Positions 13,493-18,442 of a stretch of 37,079 nt of DNA are shown one piece after another. Source of the stretch: a virus; IMG/VR virus record IMGVR_UViG_3300031576_000187, positions 1 to 37,079 of that record. One strand, written 5' to 3'. Below the pieces are notes generated by a model, which made no database searches, was not told where the DNA came from, and saw only the letters and a program-made list of their open reading frames with translations. Every line of letters begins with the position of its first letter. Position 1 is the stretch's first letter. A program made the position numbers and the translations under genes.

Positions 13493-13938
13493 CCTGGGAC
13501 GGTCGAACGCTCGCCGTGGATCGTGGCGCCTGGAACGGTTACTCGGCCCACGAAGTGACGAAACTCTACGATGTTCGCGGCGGTAACCGCATCGACGGCC
13601 AGCGTGCTGTCGCTCTGACTGGCGACGCAAATGTGGCGATGGCGATGCTGGCGTGGCTGCGCGGTGGCGAGATGATTCGCTTCCCTGACGCGGAGTGGAA
13701 CAAGTCCTGCGGCCTCATCGTCACGGTGGACCGGAAGATATTCCGCATGACGACGGGCATGACGACGTTCGAGCCTGTCGAGGCGGTGCCCTTCGCGGAT
13801 GGTGGCGGGCATGAGTACGCGCTTGGGGCGATGCTGGCCGGCGCCTCTGCTAAGCGCGCGGTCTTGTTGGTGGCGAAGCGCACCAGCATGTCCTGGGGTG
13901 GTGTGGACTGCTTGCGGATTACGAGGTCGCGCCGATGA
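13480..13938 (+). CDS. Proteasome-like Ntn hydrolase with apparent ATC start
   Basis: 152 residues if translation begins at ATC 13480. The protein begins TTIAWDGRTLAVDRGA after the initiator, the N-terminal Thr pattern of phage proteasome beta-like (Ntn) hydrolases. Later family blocks are VALTGDANVAMAMLAWLRGG and HEYALGAMLAGASAKRAVLLVAK. No ATG, GTG or TTG in frame precedes the Thr. AAGGAG (13466-13471) lies eight bases before the ATC, ideal spacing. The only standard start (GTG 13516) would remove the catalytic Thr. So either ATC is used as a rare start codon or an ATG has mutated. The protease's target in the phage is unknown. Confidence 0.7.
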   Translation: MTTIAWDGRTLAVDRGAWNGYSAHEVTKLYDVRGGNRIDGQRAVALTGDANVAMAMLAWLRGGEMIRFPDAEWNKSCGLIVTVDRKIFRMTTGMTTFEPVEAVPFADGGGHEYALGAMLAGASAKRAVLLVAKRTSMSWGGVDCLRITRSRR

Positions 13939-14414: not shown

Positions 14415-14740
14415 GCGCCCCGAGTGCCGAGAGCAAGTACATGGGCCGCGTCGCCGCGCTCGGCTGCCTGGTTTGCCGGCGACTTGGGCGCGGATGCGTG
14501 CCGGCCCAGGTACATCACATCGCCGAGGGCAGCAGCTTGCGCTCCGACTTCGCCACGGCGCCGTTGTGCCTGGCGCACCACGACCCGTACAAGACCGGCA
14601 CCGGGCTGCACGGCATGGGTGCCGAAGCCTTCTGTAAGACGTTCAAGGTGCCGTGGGAGAAGGAGGAGGGACTATTGGTGTGGGTGAACGAAGATATGCA
14701 GCTCGCCGCCCTCGGGCGGCTGCGACTGGCGGTGGCATGA
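14411..14740 (+). CDS. Ref-like HNH nuclease (RecA-dependent nuclease family)
   Basis: 109 residues from GTG 14411, overlapping the upstream stop. Key residues: a CLVC pair at about 20-23, the metal-binding VHHIAEG, then LCLAHHDPYKTGTGLHGMG, with the paired His and Asp of the Ref/DUF968-type HNH fold. In phage P1, Ref is a RecA-dependent endonuclease that cuts at D-loops; this is a shorter version lacking the long N-terminal arm. It probably processes recombination or replication intermediates. Confidence 0.8.
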   Translation: MSAPSAESKYMGRVAALGCLVCRRLGRGCVPAQVHHIAEGSSLRSDFATAPLCLAHHDPYKTGTGLHGMGAEAFCKTFKVPWEKEEGLLVWVNEDMQLAALGRLRLAVA

Positions 14741-15204
14741 GCGGCGCGATGCGGTTCTCGATCGAGCAGTTGAACCCGAAACTTCGCGCGCAGGCTCGGG
14801 AGCGGTACATCGCGGCGTTAGGCAAGGCGCGCGAGATTGTGCGGCGCCAAGACAAGGAGGCTGCGTCGGAGCTGCCGCCGCTGGCGGTCGCACAGCAGGC
14901 GACGGATCTGCTGTTGTGGCAATTCTCACTGGCTGGTGGTATTGCCGTGCCGGCGACCGAGTATCGGTTCCATCCGCAACGGAAATGGCGCTTCGACATC
15001 GCGTGGCCATCGCTGCGCCTGGCGGTGGAAATCGAAGGTGGTATCCACGGCGGGCGCGGGCGGCACATCCGGCCTGTGGGGTTCAAGCTGGATGCCGAGA
15101 AATACAACGAAGCCGCGATCATGGGCTGGCGCGTCATCCGTGTCACGCACGGCTGGATCAATGGCGGCCAAGCCTTGTCCATCATCGAGCGCGCCTACGG
15201 ATAA
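14737..15204 (+). CDS. PD-(D/E)XK endonuclease (VSR/DUF559-like)
   Basis: 155 residues from ATG 14737, overlapping the upstream stop (ATGA). The catalytic region reads FDIAWPSLRLAVEIEGGIHG (D ... ExE of a PD-(D/E)XK core), with a basic stretch RGRHIRPVG, and ends WRVIRVTHGWINGG. In phages, VSR- or DUF559-like nucleases sit where RusA-type Holliday-junction resolvases are found, so a resolvase or restriction-like role is likely. It follows the Ref-like nuclease and DUF1367 in one operon. Confidence 0.75.
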   Translation: MSGAMRFSIEQLNPKLRAQARERYIAALGKAREIVRRQDKEAASELPPLAVAQQATDLLLWQFSLAGGIAVPATEYRFHPQRKWRFDIAWPSLRLAVEIEGGIHGGRGRHIRPVGFKLDAEKYNEAAIMGWRVIRVTHGWINGGQALSIIERAYG

Positions 15205-15794: not shown

Positions 15795-15822
15795 GAGGCC
15801 CGGAGAAGTTGACCGGGCCTTT
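15795..15822 (+). terminator. Rho-independent terminator upstream of the tRNA
   Basis: An 8-bp stem, AGGCCCGG and CCGGGCCT (15795-15802, 15812-15819), with a 9-base loop is followed by TTTTGCTTT. It ends rightward transcription 12 bases before the tRNA gene. A weak promoter (TGTGGTAGCCT, extended -10-like) precedes it, which would give a short leader RNA unless read through. Confidence 0.85.
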
Positions 15823-15833
15823 TGCTTTACCAG

Positions 15834-15910
15834 CAGCGCCGTGGAGCAGTCCGGTAGCTCGCCGGCCCCATAAGCCGGAGATCACAGGTTCAAATCCTGT
15901 CGGCGCAACC
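15834..15910 (+). tRNA. Initiator-like tRNA-Met (anticodon CAT), encoded CCA
   Basis: 77 bases with all arms: acceptor AGCGCCG/CGGCGCA, D-stem GAGC/GCTC, anticodon stem CCGGC/GCCGG with loop CCCATAA (anticodon CAT), T-arm ACAGG-TTCAAAT-CCTGT, discriminator A and an encoded CCA. It has the marks of bacterial initiator tRNA: no pair at 1-72 (A1/A72, E. coli has C1/A72), an A11-T24 pair in the D-stem, and GC-rich pairs at 29-31/39-41. Unlike E. coli, position 31-39 is C-G and base 33 is C rather than the nearly universal T. It is flanked by terminators on both sides, so it may be a free-standing transcription unit or be expressed by readthrough. Confidence 0.9.
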
Positions 15911-15984
15911 AATATCCCAGAGCACCTGGCGTTCGGGGAGGGGCCGCGGCCTCTCTCGCGCCAGCTTCGGGGCATCGAGCAGTG

Positions 15985-16012
15985 TCCACCATTCTCCCTT
16001 GGTGGAATTTTT
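15985..16012 (+). terminator. Hairpin with T-rich tail after the tRNA
   Basis: A 7-bp perfect stem, TCCACCA/TGGTGGA (15985-15991, 16000-16006), with an 8-base loop, is followed by ATTTTT. It lies 74 bases after the tRNA and immediately before a second terminator. Confidence 0.65.
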
Positions 16013-16013
16013 C

Positions 16014-16048
16014 CCCTCCGGCGCAGGCAACTTGCACCGGAGGGTTTT
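16014..16048 (+). terminator. Second tandem terminator
   Basis: CCCTCCGG (16014-16021) and CCGGAGGG (16037-16044) form an 8-bp stem with a 15-base loop, followed by TTTTCTT. It separates the rightward unit from the converging minus-strand cassette. Confidence 0.75.
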
Positions 16049-16050
16049 CT

Positions 16051-16269
16051 TCAGCGGTGTGGGTGTGGCAGGCGTTGGCCGCGTGGCATCAGTTGCCCGC
16101 ACGTCGGGCAGATTTGACGCCCCTTGCGGGCGCTGCGGGCGCGGTACAGCACGGAAGGTGTGACATCGAATTTCTTGGCGGCGGCGTAGACGGTGCGGGC
16201 TTCGCCCGCCGGCGCCGCCGAGATCCAGCCAAGCGCCTTCTCGGTCTTGGTCTTCGTGTCGAGCGTCAT
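16051..16269 (-). CDS. Small helix-turn-helix/zinc-knuckle protein
   Basis: 72 residues from ATG 16269, overlapping the stop of the methyltransferase gene (ATGA). A helix-turn-helix-like region (ARTVYAAAKKFDVTPSVLYRARSARKG) is followed by a CPTCGQ Cys pair. It could regulate the promoter of this cassette, where a perfect palindrome is present, but that is inference. It is the last gene of the minus-strand unit. Confidence 0.7.
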   Translation of the reverse strand: MTLDTKTKTEKALGWISAAPAGEARTVYAAAKKFDVTPSVLYRARSARKGRQICPTCGQLMPRGQRLPHPHR

Positions 16270-18059
16270 GATGCTCGCCCATAGTCGGCGACCGAAAGTG
16301 CGACAGCAACGTTGCGCACCCATATCGGGGTCGCGCCGAGCGCGAAGGTTTCGCCGGCGCGCGCCAGTATGAACGTAGTCCCGATGACGCCAGCAATTGC
16401 TTCCGCTGCGCTCGGCGGTACGGCGTTGCCGATGCGCTCGCGCCATGCGGAGTCCGACAAGCCTTGCAACTCAAGGTACTCCTCGGGGTCAACGAGCGAT
16501 TGCAGCGCCGCGAGCTCCAGCGTCGTGAAGGGCCGGTGCCAAGTGCCATCGAGCGCGCGGATCACGCAGACGATGCGTTGCGAGGCCTGCGGGAGCGGGC
16601 GCGGGTCGGCCACGGAGTTGAAGCCGTTGTCGTGGCGCGCGACGCCGCTGACGACGTTGGAATGCTGATCCCACGGCACGACGCCGAAATGCCCGCCGGA
16701 GAGGTAGGCTTCGCGCTTCGTCGGGTCGATCTTCGGGCGCGGATCGGCGACACTGAGAGCGCCGCCCTGGACTTGATTGGCGGCGGTGATGGTGGCGGTC
16801 GCCGTATCCCACTCCGTCACGCGCAGCTTGTTGTGGTGGCTGTTCGGTGAGTAACCGACGCGCGGATCGGCAAGCGCGAGGCCGCCTGCCGGTCCACCGG
16901 GCCCGGCGACCGCTTGCGAGGGCTGATCCCACCGCACGATGCGGTACGTGGTGTTGAAGCGGGCGCCTTCGATGCGAGGATCCGCAACGGCGTGCGGCCC
17001 TCCGCCAGCGATCATCTTGGTGTTCACGGTGCCGGAGGTTTGGTCCCATCGCCGCACACCGAACTGCCCGAAGTCCTCGGACAGTTGAGGGCGCGGGTCT
17101 GACACGGCGAACTTGCCGGTGACTGGGTGCGCGTTGCCGGTGACGGTGTGCGAGGTCTCGTCCCAGTTGGCGACGCCGAGAACGCCGCCGTGCATTTCCG
17201 GCACGATCAGATAGTCGGCGAGGTTGCCATCGACGACGCGCAGCTTCTGCAGCGAGCGCCAGTCCGAACCCGCCTCAACGAAAGCAAGGCGCACCCACGT
17301 CTTCCAGTGGAGCGCCGGGAGGCGGTGCATGGGCCCTGCGGCGGTGAATCCCGGCATCGGGAAGCGATCCAGCACGTCACCGACGGCGCGCAGCTTGCGC
17401 TTCACCGGCTCGTAGAGGAATGGCGGTACCTTCTCGCGGTGTCGTGCGACGAGCAGGAACCGCTTGCGGGTCTGCGCCAAGCCGCCGAGTTCGCCGCAGT
17501 CGTGCGTGGTCTCCGCCACGGCGTAGCCGAAGGCGTGGAGCAGTTGCACGATTTGGTCGAGCAATGGTCGGCCACGGTTCGAAATGCGCGGCACGTTCTC
17601 CAGCAGCATGAATTCGGCGGGGTCGTCCTTGAACGCTTCGAGCGTCAGGAAGATGCCACGCAGCGTGATGCGGTTCAGGGCTTGGTACTTGTCGGAGCGG
17701 CTACGGGCCTCCGAGAGCAAACCGGAGAAGCCCTTGCATGGCGGTGACAAGAAGATCACGTTCGGGTATTCGCCGCCGGTTGCTCGGCGGATATCGTCGG
17801 TGGTGGCCTCGCGCCAATCTGCCGGCGGCTGGTGGCCGTGGAAGGCGATGTATTGCGGGCGATCGAAAAGGTCGAGCAACGTTGCCGGTACGCCAGCCAT
17901 GTGTCTGAAGTCGGCGATTGCGGCTGGGTCGTTGTCGATGCCGCCGATGCAGCGGTAGGTGGCGGTCATGTTGCCGACTTGAGCGCGGCCGCGATTGAAA
18001 CCTCTGGCGCCGCCGCCCAAACCGCCGAACAGGTGGAAGTGTTTGATCTCGGTATTCAT
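16266..18059 (-). CDS. C5-cytosine DNA methyltransferase with five tandem repeats
   Basis: 597 residues from ATG 18059. C5-MTase motifs in order: FGGLGGGARGFN (motif I, residues 11-22), SPPCKGFSG with catalytic Cys108 (motif IV), LLENVPR (motif VI, ENV at 154-156), QTRKRFLLVA (motif VIII, 196-205) and ERIGNAVPPSAA (motif X, 541-552). Between VIII and X, residues about 287-488 contain five units of about 40 residues, each with W-D-x-x-(S/A) and ending in (S/A)DPR. This is an unusually large, repeat-built target-recognition region. Canonical C5 enzymes are 300-450 residues. It probably protects the phage DNA from host restriction and may recognise more than one site. Confidence 0.92.
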   Translation of the reverse strand: MNTEIKHFHLFGGLGGGARGFNRGRAQVGNMTATYRCIGGIDNDPAAIADFRHMAGVPATLLDLFDRPQYIAFHGHQPPADWREATTDDIRRATGGEYPNVIFLSPPCKGFSGLLSEARSRSDKYQALNRITLRGIFLTLEAFKDDPAEFMLLENVPRISNRGRPLLDQIVQLLHAFGYAVAETTHDCGELGGLAQTRKRFLLVARHREKVPPFLYEPVKRKLRAVGDVLDRFPMPGFTAAGPMHRLPALHWKTWVRLAFVEAGSDWRSLQKLRVVDGNLADYLIVPEMHGGVLGVANWDETSHTVTGNAHPVTGKFAVSDPRPQLSEDFGQFGVRRWDQTSGTVNTKMIAGGGPHAVADPRIEGARFNTTYRIVRWDQPSQAVAGPGGPAGGLALADPRVGYSPNSHHNKLRVTEWDTATATITAANQVQGGALSVADPRPKIDPTKREAYLSGGHFGVVPWDQHSNVVSGVARHDNGFNSVADPRPLPQASQRIVCVIRALDGTWHRPFTTLELAALQSLVDPEEYLELQGLSDSAWRERIGNAVPPSAAEAIAGVIGTTFILARAGETFALGATPIWVRNVAVALSVADYGRAS

Positions 18060-18442
18060 GACCGGTTCCTTGTGCGTTTGGCGAATGCGCGGTCGCGCTT
18101 CGCGTTGAGGACCTGTTGGCGGGCGAGCAGGTCGTAGAGTCCGCCGAAGGTACAGGTGAAGCTCTTGCGTTTGCCCTTGAGTCGCGCTTTGATAATCTCT
18201 GCGCCGGTGTCGATATCCAGATGCACGGGGCGGTGGTCGCGGTGCGGCTGCTTCCCTTTCAGGTGGCGCACGCCGCTGCGTTTCCAGCGCGTGCATTCGG
18301 ACGCGAGCTCCATGCGGTCAGCGCCCCGGAATGGACGAAGGCGTAGGAAAGTGTCGATGTGATGAATCCCCTCGGCGTCGTAACCTGGGTTCGTGCCGAT
18401 GACGCGATAGCGGCGGTCCTTGTAGACGACGTAGCCCTTCAT
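18056..18442 (-). CDS. Hypothetical basic protein (128 aa)
   Basis: 128 residues from ATG 18442, overlapping the start of the methyltransferase by 4 bases. The N-terminal part (KGYVVYKDRRYRVIGTNPGYDAEGIHHIDTFLRLRPF) is a beta-rich module; the C-terminal part is basic (KARLKGKRKSFTCTFGGLYDLLARQQVLNAKRDRAFAKR). Likely a nucleic-acid-binding accessory of the DNA modification cassette. I do not recognise the family. Confidence 0.65.
   Translation of the reverse strand: MKGYVVYKDRRYRVIGTNPGYDAEGIHHIDTFLRLRPFRGADRMELASECTRWKRSGVRHLKGKQPHRDHRPVHLDIDTGAEIIKARLKGKRKSFTCTFGGLYDLLARQQVLNAKRDRAFAKRTRNRS

Follow-up and report, generated by a model that had tools for sequence, protein, structure and literature searches.

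The window, by which we mean the whole 37,079-nucleotide stretch of DNA analyzed here, is an IMG/VR virus record (IMGVR_UViG_3300031576_000187) and encodes a single tRNA, a Met(CAT) tRNA of the initiator class that carries C33 in its anticodon loop. Its sequence features make it fairly likely that it serves as a working, phage-encoded extra initiator tRNA in which C33 is tolerated, and the tRNA itself is probably functional. The C33 base is a mild variation, and the window tRNA belongs to an already known type, the phage initiator tRNAs.

The features of the locus are collected in Table 1. ARAGORN places the tRNA gene one base downstream of positions 15834-15910, where a preliminary description of this DNA had correctly recognized a tRNA gene but started it one base early. 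The match to Rfam RF00005 (gathering threshold, 29 bits) has an E value of 1.1e-10 and is thus not a chance match. The sequence and the pair map show an A1xA72 mismatch, the pairs G2-C71 and C3-G70, A11-U24 in the D-stem, G29-C41, G30-C40, and C31-G39 in the anticodon stem, an anticodon loop of C32 C33 CAU A37 A38, and A73 followed by CCA in the DNA. The A/A mismatch, the A11-T24 pair, the C at base 33, and the encoded CCA had all been read correctly in the preliminary description. Its three GC pairs at 29-31/39-41 hold as G-C for 29-41 and 30-40, while the third is C-G and not the canonical G31-C39. Its comparison with E. coli fMet as a close match holds only loosely, with 56 of 74 positions in agreement, compared with 63 of 74 for the nearest initiators that we fetched.

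Table 1. Features of the tRNA locus (positions within the window)
Feature	Position	Strand	Basis
Upstream gene phrog_503 (relatives annotated DUF559 / very-short-patch-repair-like)	14653..15204	+	
GC-rich hairpin GGCCCGG/CCGGGCC, 9-nt loop, then TTTT	15796..15823	+	Fold; absent from consensus terminator scan, weak
Initiator-class tRNA-Met(CAU), encoded CCA, 77 nt	15835..15911	+	ARAGORN; RF00005, 59.9 bits; initiator/elongator models, 89.9/52.8 bits
A1, mismatched with A72 (15907)	15835	+	Sequence; pair map
C33 replacing the usual T33	15868	+	Sequence; comparison with related initiators
Anticodon CAT (34-36)	15869..15871	+	ARAGORN
3' CCA, encoded	15909..15911	+	Sequence
Terminator-like hairpin and T-run, downstream of the tRNA	15985..16016	+	Consensus scan; fold
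DNA cytosine methyltransferase-like gene, convergent	16266..18296	-	DNA similarity to methyltransferase genes of Pseudomonas phages

To assign the tRNA to a class, we compared an initiator covariance model, built from 11 T33 initiators of phage and cellular origin with the window tRNA and all C33 sequences left out of the seed, and an elongator model built from 11 CAT elongators fetched for this analysis. The window tRNA scores 37 bits higher with the initiator model (Table 1). The initiator and the elongator of Streptomyces phage Wakanda served as controls and were sorted correctly, the former scoring 82.7 and 51.7 bits and the latter scoring 63.0 and 80.2 bits with the initiator and elongator models, respectively. 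Given the correctly sorted controls, this gap places the window tRNA in the initiator class. The initiator-like reading of the preliminary description, against which it had itself named an elongator call by covariance models, is therefore upheld, and an elongator Met or Ile(CAU) identity is ruled out by the same models. The published features that define initiators include G29-C41, G30-C40, G31-C39, and A11-U24 (PMC7949028), and 98.6% of bacterial initiators are mismatched at 1-72, with CCA often encoded (PMC5143459). The formylation-type features A11-U24, G2-C71, and C3-G70 are all present in the window tRNA. The C31-G39 flip also occurs in 8 of the 79 distinct C33 viral initiator-like tRNAs described below and, in a separate count, in 12 contigs with viral initiator-like tRNAs, which points to a recurrent departure and not to a loss of initiator class.

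Apart from 1-72, all 20 stem pairs of the window tRNA are intact. The 63 of 74 identical positions noted above are the best among 229 initiator-like sequences, and against one of the two best matches (L455), the pairs 5-68, 6-67, 27-43, and 31-39 are changed on both sides and still paired. These compensatory changes, together with an identity of at most 63/74, speak against both decay and recent copying from any initiator that we fetched, and they show purifying selection on the structure. We also aligned 79 distinct C33 viral initiator-like tRNAs, the window tRNA included, in which the observed stem covariation was reached by none of 500 shuffles. Pairing is nearly always kept from 2-71 to 7-66 and in the remaining stems, while 1-72 is unpaired in 69 of the 79; since the model leaves 1-72 free and the search pattern fixes the D-stem, the sole informative point here is how 1-72 differs from the pairs next to it. 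That difference indicates that the initiator mark is kept by selection in C33 viral tRNAs. The commonest anticodon stem among these sequences has A29-U41 in place of G29-C41 in the three-GC region, and most of them retain the usual G-C at 31-39.

The contig has a GC content of 62% and carries genes for replication, NinB, two DNA methyltransferases, TerS, TerL, the portal, the major capsid protein, and a tail fiber. The tRNA gene is located mid-contig between the phrog_503 operon and the convergent methyltransferase gene, and its position in a virus record with phage genes on either side agrees with the earlier description of it as phage encoded. The phage genes on both sides also rule out the host flank of a provirus contig. 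Elsewhere in the window, positions 2002-2970 on the minus strand encode a DUF5131 protein (PF07505, 225 bits) that also matches the PADLOC candidate-defence models PDC-M41B and PDC-M30B, and positions 13516-13938 on the plus strand encode a small protein that adjoins NinB and matches phrog_1040, annotated as the peptidase HslV family. A plasmid search for DNA related to the window returned no match.

The portal and TerL proteins are closest to those of phages such as BcepIL02 and JC1 (Lessievirus), Itty13, PEp14, Parlo, and PBC5, with genomes of 57-63 kb, so that the window amounts to about 60% of such a genome. Two of eight phage relatives searched whole have a tRNA that scores above the family cutoff, a tRNA-Ser in both BcepIL02 and JC1. 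Among 30 IMG/VR portal relatives analyzed as whole records, tRNAs of any type occur in six: tRNA-Ser in four, tRNA-Asp in one, and an initiator-like tRNA, with U1-A72 and T33, in one. No tRNA was found near the portal gene in 63 portal-relative stretches, and a TerL search returned two distant relative stretches, the longer of which is without any tRNA. The tRNA is thus sporadic among these related phages, and C33 does not characterize the lineage. Pairing of 1-72 in related phages, which had been named as a result that would speak against an initiator, is seen in the initiator-like tRNA of this one relative, while 69 of the 79 C33 viral tRNAs leave these bases unpaired. The tRNA content of phages changes fast, and this general tendency, like the sporadic distribution, would suit a passenger, that is, an initiator gene taken up from a host, either recently or within an attachment site, and serving no present function. 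We consider such a passenger quite unlikely, however, given the intact fold with its compensatory changes, the distance from every fetched initiator, and a mid-genome location with no integrase recognized among the genes searched in a contig that covers about 60% of a family genome. A relic of an integration site was rejected on the same location and integrase search.

The GC-rich hairpin upstream of the tRNA, with its T-run, ends about 11 nt before the gene and may be the terminator of the upstream operon or a leader; this reading comes from the predicted fold, and the terminator scan performed at chance level, with 4 found and 3.7 expected. No promoter-like site was found on the plus strand near the tRNA, in a promoter scan that was likewise at chance level. 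With a terminator-like hairpin just upstream, transcription of the tRNA would need read-through. Hairpins of this type on both flanks could also accompany a tRNA-like RNA with another job, such as a processing signal, a tRNA mimic, or a regulator that does not take part in translation, and in three other C33 loci (L005, L006, and L008) an ATG starts at base 73 and CCA is not encoded. For the window, such a role is highly improbable, as all charging and formylation features that can be read from the sequence are kept, CCA included, and no ATG directly follows the tRNA.

We next consider how common such tRNAs are in phages. A blastn search with the window tRNA matched 210 annotated phage records, including Caulobacter, Rhizobium, Sinorhizobium, Komagataeibacter, and Streptomyces phages and many mycobacteriophages. 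The sequences read from 17 of these records are mostly of the initiator type; the exceptions are phiK7B1, with an elongator D-stem, and ZS04 and Atu_ph07, which deviate from the D-stem rule. Initiator-pattern scans of IMG/VR gave at least 120 matches, some of which sit in the host flanks of proviruses, so that this figure should be taken as a high estimate of the genes that phages themselves own. Initiator-type Met tRNAs are therefore common in phages, contrary to the preliminary description, which had treated them as exceptional. In phiLM21, Donnerlittchen, ct7L0027, and the deviating ZS04, the initiator-type tRNA is the only tRNA in the stretch and lies near packaging or capsid genes. The lone initiator-type or initiator-like tRNAs of 50-65 kb phages tend to adjoin terminase, portal, or capsid genes (L205, L208, L212, and L215).

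C33 is a minority but recurrent form among viral initiator-like tRNAs. A narrow pattern recovered only six C33 viral contigs in IMG/VR and gave the impression that C33 is very rare in phages, which we rejected once a wider pattern recovered at least 119. An unselected IMG/VR scan allowing Y at position 33 found C33 in 3 of the 113 readable viral initiator-like tRNAs among the matches listed, and a purine at 33 was found in one viral contig. Viral elongators from contigs not selected for C33 carry it in 19 of 496 cases, a figure somewhat affected by ARAGORN register errors, and the two rates do not differ (Fisher P = 0.78). C33 as a special mark of viral initiators is thus not supported. An isolated phage, Janthinobacterium phage vB_JliS-Donnerlittchen (ON529854), has a C33 initiator-type tRNA after TerL (L208:1495-1571) that scores 77.2 bits with the initiator model and 65.6 bits with the elongator model. 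The IMG/VR contig L299 contains a sequence matching this tRNA. Three tRNA-rich phage contigs (L219, L220, and L276) have several elongator tRNAs that also deviate from T33.

C33 is also found in bacteria. A narrow C33 scan of GTDB genomes returned 65 stretches, mostly from Weissella, Leuconostoc, and Furfurilactobacillus, with a few from Uhrbacteria, Caldisericia, and other metagenome-assembled genomes, and several Weissella and the Uhrbacteria combine C33 with A1xA72. In 18 genomes from these five groups, the C33 pattern is present and the T33 pattern is absent, a test that misses any T33 initiator deviating from the pattern elsewhere. C33 appears to be the sole initiator form in whole lactic-acid genera, and our literature search found no paper on it as such in lactic-acid bacteria. 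Among 398 sampled genomes from the phylum of one Weissella genome, C33 is present in two, one of which is that Weissella. The contrast in C33 rate between viruses and cells is suggestive, and significance was not reached on these rough counts. The preliminary description had known C33 otherwise from some eukaryotic initiators, a view that gives way to the 18 bacterial genomes in which no other initiator form was found and to its presence in more than 100 IMG/VR contigs; the pattern scans rule out C33 as unique, phage specific, or eukaryote-like.

An alternative explanation is that changes in the anticodon arm protect the tRNA from a host enzyme, whether nuclease or toxin, that disables initiator tRNA, for example a VapC cutting the tRNA-fMet anticodon stem-loop, so that the phage could go on initiating once the host initiator is destroyed. 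On this view, C33 and the inverted pair C31-G39 would impair recognition by the enzyme. Cleavage of tRNA-fMet by VapC toxins within the anticodon stem-loop (PMC7180214) and acetylation of Met-tRNA-fMet by AtaT (PMC8522696) are established, and it has been proposed that some phage tRNAs evade anticodon nucleases and similar enzymes through changes in the anticodon loop (PMC10264068). By comparison with these systems, it is plausible that the tRNA could withstand such host attack (PMC10264068, PMC7180214), but as the explanation for the window tRNA we regard evasion as unlikely. With C33 about as frequent in viral elongators, the case for it as an initiator-specific counter-defence is weakened, the usual G-C pair persists at 31-39 in most C33 viral tRNAs, and bacteria with C33-only initiators indicate that the base needs no phage-specific reason. 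Where the anticodon itself is the target of VapC, phages are also reported to avoid carrying tRNA-fMet as a rule (PMC10264068). A broader proposal, that CCCAUAA-loop phage tRNAs are a recurrent class maintained as initiators across many unrelated phages in which C33 bars elongation and protects from enzymes attacking tRNA-fMet, is distinctly doubtful; if true, the phage would have its own protected start to translation.

Returning to the working extra initiator that we favor, the phage would transcribe the tRNA by read-through, and the host would process it, with RNase P acting at the 5' end and CCA already encoded. The host would then charge it with methionine through the CAU anticodon and formylate it, as expected from the unpaired 1-72 and the retained A11-U24, G2-C71, and C3-G70. 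The tRNA would be used in the P site to start proteins, presumably to the benefit of the phage, where it could supplement the host initiator pool or replace it during host shut-off or tRNA-fMet damage. The main importance of U33 lies in A-site decoding, a step that an initiator skips by entering the P site directly. C33 would therefore be tolerated, and the C33-only bacterial genomes indicate that C33 is compatible with bacterial life. We count against a functional reading that no promoter-like site lies nearby on the plus strand, that a terminator-like hairpin lies just upstream, that most phage relatives are without an initiator tRNA, and that 31-39 is C-G and not G-C. The preliminary description had also suggested a preference for particular start codons or leaderless messages, and nothing in our data points to either.

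If expressed and used, the tRNA could give the phage control over the rate-limiting step of translation or allow it to survive an attack on tRNA-fMet. Two points reach past the window. A bacterial initiator does not require U at base 33, as whole genera of lactic-acid bacteria appear to manage with C33, and initiator-like tRNAs with C33 turn up repeatedly in phages, including the isolated Donnerlittchen with its known host. These natural C33 initiators of lactic-acid bacteria and an isolated phage are the most useful by-products of this analysis, as they make the role of U33 in initiation testable with natural tRNAs.

Compared with bacterial tRNA-fMet (E. coli metZWV/metY), the window tRNA shares the 1-72 mismatch, A11-U24, G29-C41, G30-C40, the CAU anticodon, A37 A38, A73, and the encoded CCA, and it differs in having A1xA72 for C1xA72, C31-G39 for G31-C39, and C33 for U33. 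The initiators of Weissella, Leuconostoc, and Furfurilactobacillus have the same C32 C33 loop, CCCAUAA, and several from Weissella also have A1xA72; unlike the window tRNA, they are cellular, are the only form found there, have G31-C39, and usually do not encode CCA. The nuclease-evading phage tRNAs (PMC10264068) resemble it as phage tRNAs with an anticodon-loop change, and evasion would extend to the window tRNA by analogy. The initiator-type tRNAs of phiLM21, RHph_TM3_3_3, phiKX1, ct7L0027, CN1A, CcrBL9, and Wakanda, together with those of Myrnavirus and Bixzunavirus mycobacteriophages, are likewise phage encoded and bear the initiator marks, but they have T33 where the window has C33. The Donnerlittchen tRNA shares C33, the initiator class, the encoded CCA, and a position as the single tRNA beside packaging genes, and it differs in T1 at the 5' end, A9, and a shorter D-loop, and in coming from an isolated phage of an unrelated lineage with a known host.
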